44,016 nucleotides of DNA. Origin: a virus. Both the position numbers and the translations under genes were made by a program. Under the pieces are notes generated by a model. It searched no databases. It was not told where the DNA came from and saw only the letters and a list, made by a program, of their open reading frames with translations. Shown here piece after piece: positions 2,454-41,765 of the stretch (its first letter is position 1; each line of letters begins with the position of its first letter). The DNA is taken from positions 1 through 44,016 of IMG/VR virus record IMGVR_UViG_3300009034_000079, one strand, 5' to 3'.

Positions 2454-2966
2454 ATGGGTAGGATAGCTGCAGAGGACCGCAGCGACAAGATTACCATAAA
2501 GGCTCTGAAGCCCCACCACCGGGCGATGTTCCGGTACGCAGCGGCGGGGAAGACGGCGACAGAAATTTCGGAGATCTTTGGCATGTCTGTTACACAGGTC
2601 TCCATCATCATGAACTCACCCCTGTGGCTTGCCGAGCTCAACCGACTCATCGAGAACCTTGAGCTTTCTATGGTAGACGCCGCCGACGAACTTCGCTCCC
2701 TGACCGGGAGGGCCATTGAGGTCCTGGCCGAGGAAATTTACGCCCCGACCCCTCAAAGCAAGATACGTGCCAGAGTTGCCTTCGAGATCCTCGACAGAAC
2801 CGGGCACCCCAAGCAGAGTGACGTTCACATCGGAGATAAGGTCATTCACTTTCACAGCTACACCCCAAGACCGGGCGAAGACCCGAAAGAGGTGGAGAAG
2901 AAGCTCAAAGACCTGAGGGAGGGCGGCTTTGAGATCTTCACCGTAGATGAAGAGGAGGAAGACTAA
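2454..2966 (+). CDS. terS: terminase small subunit
   Basis: The 170-aa product should recognise phage DNA and load the packaging motor. Residues about 27-55 (AAGKTATEISEIFGMSVTQV and following) form a helix-turn-helix of the kind found in small terminases. A central helical region (LIENLELSMVDAADELRSL) is followed by a 'RVAFEILDRTGHPKQSDVHI' stretch common near the oligomerisation part of this family, then an acidic tail. The ATG at 2454 is chosen because GAGGTGA precedes it; a GTG at 2400 lies inside an inverted repeat. Terminase large subunit follows two genes later, which supports the call. Confidence 0.85.
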   Translation: MGRIAAEDRSDKITIKALKPHHRAMFRYAAAGKTATEISEIFGMSVTQVSIIMNSPLWLAELNRLIENLELSMVDAADELRSLTGRAIEVLAEEIYAPTPQSKIRARVAFEILDRTGHPKQSDVHIGDKVIHFHSYTPRPGEDPKEVEKKLKDLREGGFEIFTVDEEEED

Positions 2967-2967
2967 C

Positions 2968-3303
2968 ATGGCGATCCACAAGTATCTAGACGGTAAGGGT
3001 CCCCTCATGGTCAACATAGACGCTGCAATCGCCGCGAAGACAGCGATCTTCGGGGATGGCGAGCACGGCACGATCAGGCATATCTTCTGGTGCGGTGCTA
3101 CCAACGCTCACAAAGTTTCCCTCGTCAACGACGACGGAGCCCCGATTTTCAAGTTTACTGCTGCAACCGGCGATCTGAGTCCTCACTTCGAGAATATTGA
3201 TCTCAATTTCGGCAACGGCCTTTATTGCGACGATCTCGATGGCGGGGATTTTTGGCTTGTACTCAGTGCCATAATGCCGAGTCCTAAAGATCTAAAGGTA
3301 TAG
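2968..3303 (+). CDS. hypothetical small virion-type protein, 111 aa
   Basis: Starts one base after the terminase small-subunit stop with GAGGAGG upstream. The sequence reads as a compact beta-sandwich: LDGKGPLMVNIDAAIAAK, HIFWCGATNAHKVSLVNDDG, IFKFTAATGDLSPHFE, ending LVLSAIMPSPKDLKV. Short all-beta proteins of this kind occur in phage structural modules, but I cannot name the family. Its position directly before a fibre-like protein suggests a virion or fibre-associated role. This is inference. Confidence 0.75.
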   Translation: MAIHKYLDGKGPLMVNIDAAIAAKTAIFGDGEHGTIRHIFWCGATNAHKVSLVNDDGAPIFKFTAATGDLSPHFENIDLNFGNGLYCDDLDGGDFWLVLSAIMPSPKDLKV

Positions 3304-5921: not shown

Positions 5922-6184
5922 CGGAAAAAGAGAAGTTGGAAGATTTCATGGTCAGGGAACATAGTCTGACCAAGCCAACGGGTAAGGGGTTCACGCTTGG
6001 TTTCAACGATCCTAGCGGAAGCTCCTACGTGCACGTCTGTGGTGGCTGCGGTTCCTTTAGCGATTTTCACAAGCACACGAGCGGCGACTTCTATTTCTGC
6101 GGCAAGTGCAACAAGATACAAGCACTGAAGTGTGGGTGTCCCGACCCGAACTGTCCGAGGTGCAAAGGTGCCAAGACCCCGTAG
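5918..6184 (+). CDS. zinc-ribbon protein, 88 aa
   Basis: The start overlaps the terminase stop codon. Two CxxC pairs (CGGC near 41 and CGKC near 62) make a zinc-ribbon, followed by a Cys-rich tail CGCPDPNCPRC. No catalytic domain is present. It is translationally coupled to the large terminase, so it may assist packaging, but this is only positional. It is one of many tiny Cys-pair proteins in this phage. Confidence 0.75.
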   Translation: MTEKEKLEDFMVREHSLTKPTGKGFTLGFNDPSGSSYVHVCGGCGSFSDFHKHTSGDFYFCGKCNKIQALKCGCPDPNCPRCKGAKTP

Positions 6185-30776: not shown

Positions 30777-31013
30777 TCAGAATTTTGGTGGCGTCGTTGC
30801 CTCGATGTAATTATCGTGCTGTTGGAAATGAAGACAGGTAAGACAACGGAGGAAAGTCGCAATAGCATTGGAAGAAGCACTGCTCCCTGGTTCTGATTTC
30901 CTCCTTTCCATCGCAACGACAGCTCTATAAGAGGTGACGCTGCTAAGGAGGAAGAACTTCCGGTAGTTGCTGCAGTTATCCTTGTCACAAGGCCACCATA
31001 TCTTCTCAGCCAT
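30777..31013 (-). CDS. small Cys-containing protein, 78 aa
   Basis: Begins at 31013, its ATG overlapping the polymerase stop region, with GGAGGGGATG upstream. CDKDNC near the start and CLTC near residue 57-60 may bind zinc. Basic middle. No family recognised. Confidence 0.6.
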   Translation of the reverse strand: MAEKIWWPCDKDNCSNYRKFFLLSSVTSYRAVVAMERRKSEPGSSASSNAIATFLRCLTCLHFQQHDNYIEATTPPKF

Positions 31014-33427
31014 TACATCCCCTCCATCTCCCCCCAGTTCTCTCCCACTTTAAAGTCCACAGGGATTGTAAGCTCGCGCCCGTTCACCTGGTGAGAGATC
31101 GTCATCAGCTCCCTCATCATGGGGATGAGCCGCTGTACGTCACTCGGGTCAGCCTGCACAACAACTTCGTCGTGAATGTTGAGCAGAATCTCGCAGATCC
31201 TCTCTTGACACTCAAGGATACTGTGGATCTCCCGAATTGATATACAAAGTAATTCCCCCACGGTAGACTGAGGGACGAAAGCAATTGCTTTTCTATACAG
31301 ATCTGGTCCTCTTCTCCCATAAAAGATTCTCTTTCTCCCCAGCGGGGTAACGAGGGTTCTATCCGTGTCTATCTTCGCTTTCACCTGCCTCTTCCAGCCC
31401 TCGATCATCGGCCTCTTCATACGTATCTTCGCCAAGACATTCACACATTCCGAGTATTCAAAGTCGAAACCCTCTTTGAGGAGGCGGCTTTGCAGCTGGC
31501 GGGGGCCTATTTCATAGTTGTATCCATACTTCATGTGCTTCGCTGGTTGTCTCACCTCCTTCCCGAAGAGCTTCCTCACATCGTTAGGGTCTGTGTCCGG
31601 AGGCACGAGTCCGAGGTCCACAGCACTGATCCCGTGAATGTCGTCCCCTCTTAGAAAGGCTTCGATCTCCGCCTTCTCGTTGGCGAGCCAGGCTACTTCC
31701 CTGGCTTCAGCCTGACTAAAATCTGCGGAGATGAGGACTTTTCCTGGATCTGCAATGAATAGTTTACGAATCTCTGCTCCCTCCTCTCCACGGACTGGGA
31801 TATTTTGTAGATTGCCACCCCCTCCGAAAGGTGACTCAGAACTAGAGAGTCTCCAAGTTGTAGTTCCAGCTGGATTGTAGGTAGTGTGAAATCTTCCATC
31901 TTTGCTCACCTCCATTTCTACGTTAGTGGAAAGAAGCTTGAGAAATTTCCTCCTTCGACGGATCAGTTCTATCACAGGGTTAGTTGGGTGCAACCTCTTC
32001 AGGCGAAGGAGGGCCGCATCCTCCGTTGTAAGCTTCCCTCCTTTGTACTGCGGGGTGAGGCCCATGTCGACGTAGAGAAGTTGAACAAGATCCTTCGTGT
32101 AGGCTGTTGATACCTGATAAGAGCGGCCCATCAGCTTTTCGATCTCGACCGAGCACTCCTCTGCCCCTCTTGAGAAGAGTACACGAAGCTCCTCCCTCTT
32201 CTCCATGTCACATTTGACTCCACGGATGGTCATAGCGAGAAGGCTTGGATAGTATGACATGGACCGCTTGTACCCTTCCCACATGCCCAGTTGGCGACAA
32301 TCCTGTGAGATGATAGGCCATGCCTCGCGAGGGACGCAAACGTCTTTACCGTTGTAAATCGAGAGAGCGTGATCTCCAATCCTCTTCCCCCAAAGCTTAC
32401 CATCGTCCTTATAGTAAGGTTCCCACGTGTAAGACGAAGCGATGAAGTCGAGACCCTTAGGTAGGTGTGGGTAGGTGGCATGATGGCAAACCATAGTGTC
32501 ATCGACAGTGCCTTGCGCACACCGAAGGCCCCAAAATTTCCCCAGAATAGGTAAGTCATACATACCTCCTTGGAAGTTCTTCTGAACATCGTCGCGGAGG
32601 AAGAGCTCGGAGAGTGCAAAGAGGATTCTTCCGAACTCGCCTGCCGTCCAGTAAGGTCTTCCTTCCCAAATGAAGGGAATTGAGATGGCACTGACAGCGA
32701 GAGGGTCCCAGCAAAGGCCGAGCCTAGTGATAAGAGGGCCGGGAGGCCTCGTTTCAATGTCAACGGTACAGGTAGAACCACTTGGAATTTCTGAGATGAA
32801 GCGGATGACCTCGGTAAGAGTTTGCGGCAGAGTGATGTTGCGGTTAGGAGTAGGAAACATTGGCGTCAAACTCTGTTCTTTCACCCTTTGAAAGTCCCGG
32901 ATCGAGATCGGCAGAAGGTTCATCGCCTTCTTTTCGCTCTTTCTCTGCCCCTTTTCTTGAAGATGTTTCCTCACGTATTCTGGGTGATAGGTGCAGTAGA
33001 CCTTTAAACCAGGTGCTAGGACGCATGGCAGTAAACTTCCTCTCCACTTCGTTATCCTCCTCTTCCCCGCAAGAACCCACATGGCCTCGGCTCCAAGGGC
33101 CACTACTACATTAGGACGGTGTTCCTCGAGAAGCCTTCGAAGCCTCTCTACGTGTTGGGCTCCAAGGTCGTTGAGATATTGTTTCTTGGTATCTATGTAG
33201 AAGAAACCCGTATCGTCGCGAGGGGGTCTTTCTTCGAATAGGTTCTCCAGGCGAACCTCTGCTCGAAGGAGGCCGACTTGTCGGAGGACGAGGTCAAGGA
33301 GGCCACCCGCTCCTCTTGGATTAGCGAAGGGATGACCGGCCTTTATCTCCTCACGAGAAGGGGCCATGCCCACGAACCAGAGATCAGAATCAAGAGGGCC
33401 GCTCCCCTTTACAAGTACTTTGGTCAC
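31013..33427 (-). CDS. DNA polymerase I (family A) with N-terminal uracil-DNA-glycosylase-like domain
   Basis: 804 aa. Residues about 12-155 resemble family 4-type uracil-DNA glycosylase: FVGMAPSREEIKAGHPFANP, a NLFEERPP motif and YHPEYV. The 3'-5' exonuclease follows: DIETRPP (D223, E225), NFQGGMYDLPIL, and a later acidic site in DHALSIYNGKDV. The polymerase has motif A DFSQAEAREV, motif B (R626, K630, Y634) and motif C IHDEV (about 751-755). Tyr at the position of E. coli Phe762 would lower discrimination against dideoxynucleotides. It is the replication polymerase of this phage. A GTG start follows GGGAGGAG. A glycosylase-like N-terminal domain is known in the SPO1 polymerase. Confidence 0.9.
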   Translation of the reverse strand: MTKVLVKGSGPLDSDLWFVGMAPSREEIKAGHPFANPRGAGGLLDLVLRQVGLLRAEVRLENLFEERPPRDDTGFFYIDTKKQYLNDLGAQHVERLRRLLEEHRPNVVVALGAEAMWVLAGKRRITKWRGSLLPCVLAPGLKVYCTYHPEYVRKHLQEKGQRKSEKKAMNLLPISIRDFQRVKEQSLTPMFPTPNRNITLPQTLTEVIRFISEIPSGSTCTVDIETRPPGPLITRLGLCWDPLAVSAISIPFIWEGRPYWTAGEFGRILFALSELFLRDDVQKNFQGGMYDLPILGKFWGLRCAQGTVDDTMVCHHATYPHLPKGLDFIASSYTWEPYYKDDGKLWGKRIGDHALSIYNGKDVCVPREAWPIISQDCRQLGMWEGYKRSMSYYPSLLAMTIRGVKCDMEKREELRVLFSRGAEECSVEIEKLMGRSYQVSTAYTKDLVQLLYVDMGLTPQYKGGKLTTEDAALLRLKRLHPTNPVIELIRRRRKFLKLLSTNVEMEVSKDGRFHTTYNPAGTTTWRLSSSESPFGGGGNLQNIPVRGEEGAEIRKLFIADPGKVLISADFSQAEAREVAWLANEKAEIEAFLRGDDIHGISAVDLGLVPPDTDPNDVRKLFGKEVRQPAKHMKYGYNYEIGPRQLQSRLLKEGFDFEYSECVNVLAKIRMKRPMIEGWKRQVKAKIDTDRTLVTPLGRKRIFYGRRGPDLYRKAIAFVPQSTVGELLCISIREIHSILECQERICEILLNIHDEVVVQADPSDVQRLIPMMRELMTISHQVNGRELTIPVDFKVGENWGEMEGM

Positions 33428-38587: not shown

Positions 38588-39562
38588 CTATCCTTTCCTT
38601 TCCCAGGGTTTCCACTGTTCCCTGTAGGTGTAAAGATTCCCTGGTACATGTGTCTTCTCCGGGGGTGTATTCATCGCGCAGAGAAGGCTATACATACAAG
38701 ACTTGAGCCCATAACCTCCATGACAGAACCTCCCTGTCATGGGCCAGGACCATTCTGGCCAATGGGAATTCCAGGTAGGCCTGATCGGCCTCCCGAGGTG
38801 GGTCGAGTACTTCTTGCGCCATCTGTCAAAGGGATGCCCCCACTGCGCCCTGATTCCTTCCACCCTACCCTTCCATTCCTCCTCGAAGCGGAGAAGCTCA
38901 AAGGAACTCCGCTGCTCTATCCCTCTTATAAAGAGCTCTCTTTCTGTTGTTTCCTTCTTCGGGATCAGGAGTGAGGCGATGTTCATAAGACAGCCCCACG
39001 GCTCCTCTTCTATAGTCCGGTGAAGTCCCCAAATGTACTGCGTTGGCTGCAGGTGAAGCCGGAACTGTGGAAGAGTGTTGTCCGTGATATAGAACTTCAT
39101 TGTCTTGTTTTCCAGGACGAGCGGCCCGTAGGGCTCCCATCTTATATAGCCATCCATCGCGCCGCCTAGGGAGAAGTCGGAGAGGGGATAGGCCCAACCG
39201 AGCTCGCACCTCACAAAGAGCCAAGGCTCTATGGGGAATTGCATAATGTAGAGGGAAAAAAGGTTGAGAAGATTGGCGTGGCTTCTTGCTTCATCAAGGA
39301 TGGGTGTCTGGCAGGCCGCGTAGGTTTTAAGAATGGCCGCTTGTCCCTGGGCTAGGCGTTCGCCCTGAGTGCCCTCGCTATTGTACCACTTCGTAAGGGC
39401 CGCTTGCCATGCTCGGCCAGCCGTGAAGTAATCCGGTTCTTCGAGGGGAACAACTCCTCGGAGGAACCAGTAGAGTTTCCTGGGGCAGTCGTCCCAATGG
39501 TCTCCCATTGTGTAATCGAAGATAGAAGGTGGACCTTCTTCTCTAAGTTGCTCGTCTGTCAT
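38588..39562 (-). CDS. Cas4/RecB-like PD-(D/E)XK nuclease with Fe-S-type cysteines
   Basis: 324 aa. N-terminal CPRKLYWFLRG (Cys26) is typical of this superfamily; GGAMDGYIRW and VLENKTMKF carry the metal-binding Asp and the E-x-K. The C-terminus has RFCHGGYGLKSCMYSLLC, three Cys which with Cys26 would bind a 4Fe-4S cluster as in Cas4 and AddB. The enzyme probably cuts single-stranded or double-stranded DNA ends for recombination or host DNA breakdown. GGGAGGTGA precedes the ATG. Confidence 0.8.
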   Translation of the reverse strand: MTDEQLREEGPPSIFDYTMGDHWDDCPRKLYWFLRGVVPLEEPDYFTAGRAWQAALTKWYNSEGTQGERLAQGQAAILKTYAACQTPILDEARSHANLLNLFSLYIMQFPIEPWLFVRCELGWAYPLSDFSLGGAMDGYIRWEPYGPLVLENKTMKFYITDNTLPQFRLHLQPTQYIWGLHRTIEEEPWGCLMNIASLLIPKKETTERELFIRGIEQRSSFELLRFEEEWKGRVEGIRAQWGHPFDRWRKKYSTHLGRPIRPTWNSHWPEWSWPMTGRFCHGGYGLKSCMYSLLCAMNTPPEKTHVPGNLYTYREQWKPWERKG

Positions 39563-41494: not shown

Positions 41495-41515
41495 AAAAAG
41501 GGGAGCCCCCTCCCC
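41495..41515 (-). terminator. rho-independent terminator of the leftward RNA
   Basis: On the minus strand GGGGAG (41515-41510) pairs with CTCCCC (41505-41500) around a short G loop, followed by five T (41499-41495). It ends the leftward transcript of the structured RNA before gene 41261-41464. Confidence 0.75.
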
Positions 41516-41610
41516 ATCGTAGCTCTTAGCCGTGGCGTCCGACGAGTCAGGGGCTCCTTGGACCCTGCTGCTCTTGCCCTTTTACTTTGAACGGTGTTGT
41601 TAAGGAGTAT

Positions 41611-41706
41611 GCCAGCGACTTTACCCTTTGTCCACGTTCCCCCCGTAAAGACCCTTCTGGAGATCCTTACGGCGGGAACGCTGGGATTCGAACCCAGGAC
41701 TCTGGC
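41611..41706 (-). ncRNA. circularly permuted tRNA-like RNA
   Basis: Leftward order: anticodon-stem 3' strand GCCAG (41706-41702), variable AGTC (41701-41698), T-arm CTGGG-TTCGAAT-CCCAG (41697-41681), acceptor 3' strand CGTTCCC (41680-41674), G73-like base, a hairpin linker (41672-41642), acceptor 5' strand GGGAACG (41641-41635), TG (positions 8-9), D-arm GAC-AAAGGGTAAA-GTC (41632-41617), G26, anticodon-stem 5' strand CTGGC (41615-41611). Acceptor (7/7), anticodon (5/5), T (5/5) and D (3/3) stems are all perfectly paired, and U8, A14, GG and the T-loop signature are present. The order is permuted, and the anticodon loop is split, so the anticodon cannot be read. No CCA is encoded. Confidence 0.6.
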
Positions 41707-41730
41707 TCCATCCGTCCAGGGTAGGCATTG

Positions 41731-41765
41731 TGCACAGCAGTCGTGGTCGTGATGCTGTGGGTGCA
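41731..41765. repeat. hairpin upstream of the permuted tRNA half
   Basis: TGCACAGCA (41731-41739) pairs with TGCTGTGGGTGCA (41753-41765) with a small bulge; the loop holds a tandem GTCGTG. It lies just before the first tRNA half in the transcript and could be part of a larger folded RNA. Confidence 0.5.

Follow-up and report, generated by a model that had tools for sequence, protein, structure and literature searches.

We found a complete, circularly permuted tRNA cloverleaf on the minus strand of the window (the whole stretch of DNA analysed here, a virus record of about 44,017 bases). Read from 41706 to 41611, its parts follow in the order anticodon-stem half, T arm, acceptor strand, linker hairpin, acceptor strand, D arm and anticodon-stem half (Table 1). 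The RNA is probably a phage non-coding RNA that follows, in divergent form, the plan of YrlA, the bacterial Y RNA, and it has no recognisable Ro60/Rsr partner.

By gene content the virus is a tailed phage, with recognised genes for terminase, portal, major head protein, a ParB-methyltransferase and a Sak4-like ATPase, and judged by its relatives it looks to be of bacterial type. It also encodes a family A DNA polymerase with a fused uracil-DNA glycosylase domain (31013-33427, minus strand), and an unassigned protein (38588-39562) stands where the relative MW202489 has a PD-(D/E)XK nuclease. A predicted outer-membrane beta-barrel protein (PF13505; 40289-40825, minus strand) suggests a Gram-negative host. 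The permuted element lies in a 595-base gap with minus-strand genes on either side, 42670-41915 (DUF7873) and 41319-40822. No tRNA or tmRNA was reported in the window by ARAGORN, and Rfam gave no match there at its gathering thresholds. A minus-strand ORF of 151 codons (41910-41455) runs through the RNA; its codon use is gene-like in the first 30-45 codons and not in the remainder, the score for the whole ORF being -0.014 compared with 0.04 to 0.38 in reference genes, and a search against the phage collection gave no match. A coding ORF through the element was rejected on these two grounds, and a short gene may end just 5' of the RNA.

The hairpin on the acceptor ends is real and beyond chance. 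The positions given for the two acceptor strands in the earlier note proved correct when read on the minus strand, where CGTTCCC and GGGAACG form seven of seven pairs, all of them Watson-Crick. That note had described a 17-bp arm with a 12-base loop; the long hairpin was confirmed, and its actual size is 19 bp with a 6-base loop. The linker of 32 bases pairs better than had been described: one G-G mismatch (41673/41642) is followed by 12 bp (CCGUAAGGAUCU/GGGUCUUUACGG) containing three G-U pairs, and by the loop CCAGAA. The arm folded at -31.7 kcal/mol compared with -13.6 ± 2.6 kcal/mol in dinucleotide shuffles, a value reached by none of 1000 shuffles, and the linker alone was equally exceptional (-16.4 versus -6.4 ± 2.1 kcal/mol; 0/1000). 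The pairing probability of the arm was near 1 in all stretches folded.

Table 1. Parts of the permuted tRNA-like element and of its surroundings, in window coordinates (R1 and R2, see text)
Feature	Position	Strand	Basis
Permuted tRNA-like module, whole	41611..41706	-	Sequence, folding, shuffles, Markov-genome search
Predicted basal stem, 5' strand, irregular (CTGCTGT, TGCCT.., TGGACGG, GGA)	41707..41740	-	Constrained fold, duplex energy
Anticodon-type stem, 3' half GCCAG	41702..41706	-	5/5 pairs with 41615-41611
Variable region AGTC, 4 nt	41698..41701	-	Sequence
T arm CTGGG-TTCGAAT-CCCAG	41681..41697	-	5/5 pairs, canonical T loop; aligned also by models R1 and R2
Acceptor 3' strand CGTTCCC	41674..41680	-	7/7 Watson-Crick pairs with 41641-41635
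Linker closing the acceptor ends: G-G mismatch, 12-bp helix, 6-nt loop	41642..41673	-	-16.4 kcal/mol, 0/1000 shuffles
Acceptor 5' strand GGGAACG	41635..41641	-	7/7 Watson-Crick pairs with 41680-41674
D arm GAC-AAAGGGTAAA-GTC, GG in loop	41617..41632	-	3 bp, weak in energy-only folding
Anticodon-type stem, 5' half CTGGC	41611..41615	-	5/5 pairs with 41706-41702
Predicted basal stem, 3' strand (TCC, CCGTTCA, AGGGCA, GCAGCAG)	41565..41610	-	Predicted pairing with 41740-41707
Intrinsic terminator GGGGAG gggg CTCCCC, then TTTTT	41500..41515	-	Consensus scan, 0.8 expected in shuffles

The remaining parts of the cloverleaf are joined by short spacers, T-G between the acceptor 5' strand and the D arm and a single G between the D arm and CTGGC. 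A search with the full set of cloverleaf criteria, which were chosen after the element had been seen, fired once in the window and in none of 400 Markov-resampled genomes of equal size; the T arm and the 7-bp acceptor alone fired four times in 400 such genomes. With the cloverleaf imposed, the RNA folded at -75.0 kcal/mol compared with a free minimum of -77.7 kcal/mol. In the free minimum of longer stretches, which was ahead by these 2.7 kcal/mol, the T and D arms are re-paired, and it should be noted that the energy models do not count D-loop/T-loop contacts.

Outside the cloverleaf, the two ends of the RNA are predicted to form an irregular basal stem, which would take the place of the anticodon loop. 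The predicted duplex has an energy of -28.8 kcal/mol compared with -21.2 ± 3.6 kcal/mol in shuffles, 3.2% of which equalled it; with longer flanks 1.3% were as good, so that overall the predicted stem was better than 97-99% of shuffles. This likely stem would enclose the cloverleaf, and a terminator hairpin with a T tract comes after it at 41515-41500. No second copy of the window RNA was found in the loci searched, and no close relative was found via the neighbouring proteins; a DNA-polymerase profile search yielded 80 relative loci, none of which contained the permuted module. At 5955-6130, the closest relative found (L150, 43% identity in DNA polymerase) has an RNA resembling tRNA-Leu (GCCGCAG ... 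CCAGGTTCGAGTCCTGGCTGTGGC) whose parts stand in the normal order; ~100 extra bases separate its D and T arms, and ARAGORN does not call it.

A scan for the permuted T arm and acceptor led through another viral contig, L004, to Rhizobium plasmids, where the match sits between an RNA-binding-protein gene and rtcB, beside rtcR. Rfam assigns these matches to YrlA (RF02553), and the RNA-binding protein may be Ro60-like, judging only from its place in the rtc operon. On the plasmids L014-L016 (about 2470-3040), tandem YrlA copies adjoin the RNA-binding-protein and rtcB genes; the best of them score 60-64 bits, just below the Rfam gathering score of 69, and would therefore be missed by pipelines with that cut-off. 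YrlA is described as modular: its two ends form a stem that is bound by Rsr, and its tRNA-like domain has D, T and acceptor arms; DusA and TruB both act on it, and the Y RNA tethers Rsr to PNPase (PMC8394870). We extracted 119 cellular YrlA copies, which show the order T arm, acceptor strand, linker, acceptor strand and D arm, with a T-to-D-arm stretch of 14 to 98 nt and long hairpins in L105, L132, L070 and L075. Furthermore, the sealed acceptor arm covaries in 41 aligned YrlA RNAs, with one pair changed on both sides in up to 25 of them. Given this covariation and the long linker hairpins among YrlA copies, a hairpin that seals the acceptor ends is a normal part of the Y RNA class and not a sign of pending processing.

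The window RNA shares with YrlA the part order of T arm, acceptor, closed linker, acceptor and D arm. The likeness extends to the permuted tRNA-like domain itself, sealed by a loop or hairpin, and to a similar size; the predicted basal stem, in which the two ends of the RNA would pair around these parts, would be a further likeness. On the other hand, the near-invariant YrlA motifs CGAATGC, AACTACA and TTGTCG, presumed to be the Rsr-binding site, are absent from the window RNA; a search for a TROVE (Ro60/Rsr) gene in the phage window found none; RF02553 does not detect the RNA, which stays below the gathering score; the D arm is not of the TAGCTCA type; and the linker is a long hairpin. R1, a YrlA model from whose construction the window RNA had been left out, aligned this RNA from end to end (41720-41588) with 23.3 bits (E 3.6e-7 for 466 bases, filters off), or 15.1 bits with filters and a larger search space (E 0.1-0.4); since ordinary tandem tRNAs reach 26-30 bits with R1, this score is not proof of YrlA membership. 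A phage-type model (R2) aligned only the T arm. Across 2.63 Mb of fetched loci, a strict cloverleaf search fired almost only in YrlA-fetched loci, in L004, in a jumbo phage with an Rsr gene next to its Y RNAs and in the window, and it gave nothing across 1.31 Mb of loci taken from relatives of the phage. Because the defining features of YrlA were tested in the window RNA and not found there, we do not claim that it belongs to this family.

Viral contigs gave at least 121 pattern matches in at least 120 loci. A closed acceptor arm was present in 53 of the 121 matches listed, a minority of these 53 being ordinary tRNA neighbours, and phage RNAs of the sealed-arm plan are common. About half of the sealed-arm viral RNAs among the matches listed carry the 5' motif GTAGA..GGTTACTTC. 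These phage Y RNAs resemble the window RNA in that a phage genome encodes a tRNA-like module with a sealed arm; they differ from it in their shared 5' motif and, mostly, a TROVE gene, both of which the window lacks. A TROVE protein is encoded in 15 of the 18 searched contigs bearing related phage RNAs (L238-L357, IMG/VR). The exceptions are L267, L285 and L336, with the motif missing in L267 and L336; L351 has a motif variant and a TROVE gene. Four further contigs (L318, L355, L357 and L256), each about 40 kb long or longer, have a sealed arm without the motif, and TROVE is absent from them. The group with neither motif nor TROVE consists of the window, L004, L256, L267, L318, L336, L355 and L357, and long basal stems occur in the window, L256, L267 and L357, not in L318, L336 and L355. 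Among comparison contigs with open arms or tRNA clusters, TROVE was found in 2 of 22. Absence of the motif thus seems to go with absence of TROVE, which is an association and not proof, because some contigs could be incomplete, each group has few members, and both the motif and the grouping were in part assigned by eye.

Several individual loci deserve mention. In L004 (IMGVR_UViG_3300048855_000175, 1305-1440), the only match of an exact permuted-pattern search, a permuted tRNA-Asn-like gene consists of a 3' half (TTAATCCTC...), a 7-base linker and a 5' half (...GGGGACTG); a strong terminator hairpin follows the split anticodon loop within a few bases, and the contig has no TROVE gene. In a jumbo-phage contig of 358 kb (IMGVR_UViG_3300017963_000188, G002, about 327972-330086; L143), a TROVE/Rsr gene lies upstream of clustered YrlA-type RNAs, which share GGCAGCAGCGTAG..GATACTTCG. 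A Microbacterium phage (L017, 1466-1720) has two tandem, unannotated Y-RNA-like elements with the common sequence GAGCCGAAGC....GATTATCTT.

The hairpin had previously been read as the mark of a precursor in which tRNA halves, transcribed head to tail, await processing. The permuted order of 3' half, linker and 5' half is supported; cutting by RNase P and RNase Z is not, and neither is the hairpin as a pre-tRNA mark, considering that YrlA shares the order with a fixed, covarying sealed arm. A circularly permuted tRNA gene would require the halves to be joined in the anticodon loop and the linker to be removed by RNase P and by RNase Z or exonucleases, giving an active tRNA. The cloverleaf is indeed complete once the halves are joined, with a 5-bp anticodon stem, GG in the D loop, a canonical T loop and G73; a junction after ATAC would give the loop AT-ACG-GA, with an Arg(ACG)-like anticodon, and in L004 another virus has such a permuted gene, its halves still CTG|TTAA. 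We nevertheless consider this explanation improbable. Twelve base pairs, past one mismatch, hold the would-be 5' leader to the would-be 3' trailer; with a leader that can make just two pairs to the 3' end, the kcat/Km of RNase P is already about 13-fold lower (PMC9433436), which leaves RNase P cutting unsupported here. CCA is not encoded, GCCG following the acceptor, no RNA ligase was recognised among the proteins scanned, and the splicing endonuclease is not expected in a bacterium. Known permuted tRNA genes have a bulge-helix-bulge at the junction and depend on the splicing endonuclease of archaea and eukaryotes (PMC3978253). Those of algae and crenarchaea likewise have the 3' half ahead of the 5' half and are spliced through a circle; no bulge-helix-bulge motif was seen when the sequence at the split anticodon loop of the window was read by eye, and an archaeal-type permuted tRNA was rejected for this reason and for the bacterial look of the phage by its relatives. 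We also rejected a group I intron with permuted exons at the split loop: Rfam showed none with E values up to 5, and L004 leaves no space for one.

Descent from a permuted tmRNA in two pieces (RF01850/RF04321), as a relic or a variant, is more doubtful still. Such RNAs also have the order T arm, acceptor, intervening segment and acceptor, and the best weak Rfam match of the window RNA was beta_tmRNA (21.5 bits, E 1.2e-4 in 801 bases), together with tmRNA_permuted at 15.8 bits; both matches span only the T arm, the acceptor strands and the linker, and both lie far under gathering (84 and 47 bits, respectively). The intervening segment of the window RNA is instead a stable hairpin, a D stem and a 5-bp anticodon-type stem are present, and CCA is absent. 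Pair 3:70 is G-C and not the G-U required for alanine, and no resume codon, AA-ending tag or stop was found by eye in the three frames after 41611; tmRNA identity was rejected for want of the tag and of G3-U70. Least credible of all is a chance or decayed tRNA/attP fragment within the ORF that covers the element. The region is open over 151 codons and begins with gene-like codon use, whereas the ORF as a whole is not gene-like and has no match in the phage collection, and four helices and a linker hairpin together are beyond chance expectation. We also rejected an attP site copied from the 3' end of a host tRNA, the 5' half being present as well. A better candidate, to which we still give only a minor share of belief, is a sealed tRNA mimic outside Ro60/Rsr, serving as an uncleavable decoy for host factors that target tRNA, for example anticodon nucleases. 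This is the Rsr-free form of our preferred explanation, with which it overlaps. The window has neither an Rsr gene nor the Rsr motif, and the same applies to seven other viral contigs of at least 40 kb with sealed-arm RNAs, some of which have long basal stems (L256, L267 and L357). However, the lack of Rsr on the contig is also compatible with a host Rsr.

If the window RNA is a divergent phage RNA of the YrlA plan, as we favour, it would stay whole, stable, unprocessed and uncharged, and would offer a sealed tRNA elbow and acceptor arm to tRNA-binding proteins of the host, in the manner of the tRNA-mimic module of a Y RNA. Its basal stem might be held by another protein or merely protect the ends, and the RNA might be a tether, or else a decoy to enzymes that read the tRNA shape. 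With no Rsr of its own, the phage might use that of the host, or the mimic might work alone. Y RNAs are known as Ro60/Rsr partners. Their presence in phages has already been reported (PMC12282133, PMC7765460), and the tRNA-like domain of YrlA is not cut by a Salmonella anticodon nuclease, for which it has been proposed as a competitor or competitive inhibitor (PMC7790460). We tentatively suggest, as a possibility well short of probable, that phages carry sealed, permuted tRNA mimics outside the Ro60/Rsr system, as uncleavable and uncharged decoys or tethers directed at host proteins that handle or cut tRNA, and that the window RNA with its 19-bp arm is a member. With a sealed mimic that has neither Rsr gene nor motif, the tRNA-mimic role would be separable from the Ro60-tether role, and the proposed competition of such RNAs with tRNA-cutting nucleases would have a small, testable case.
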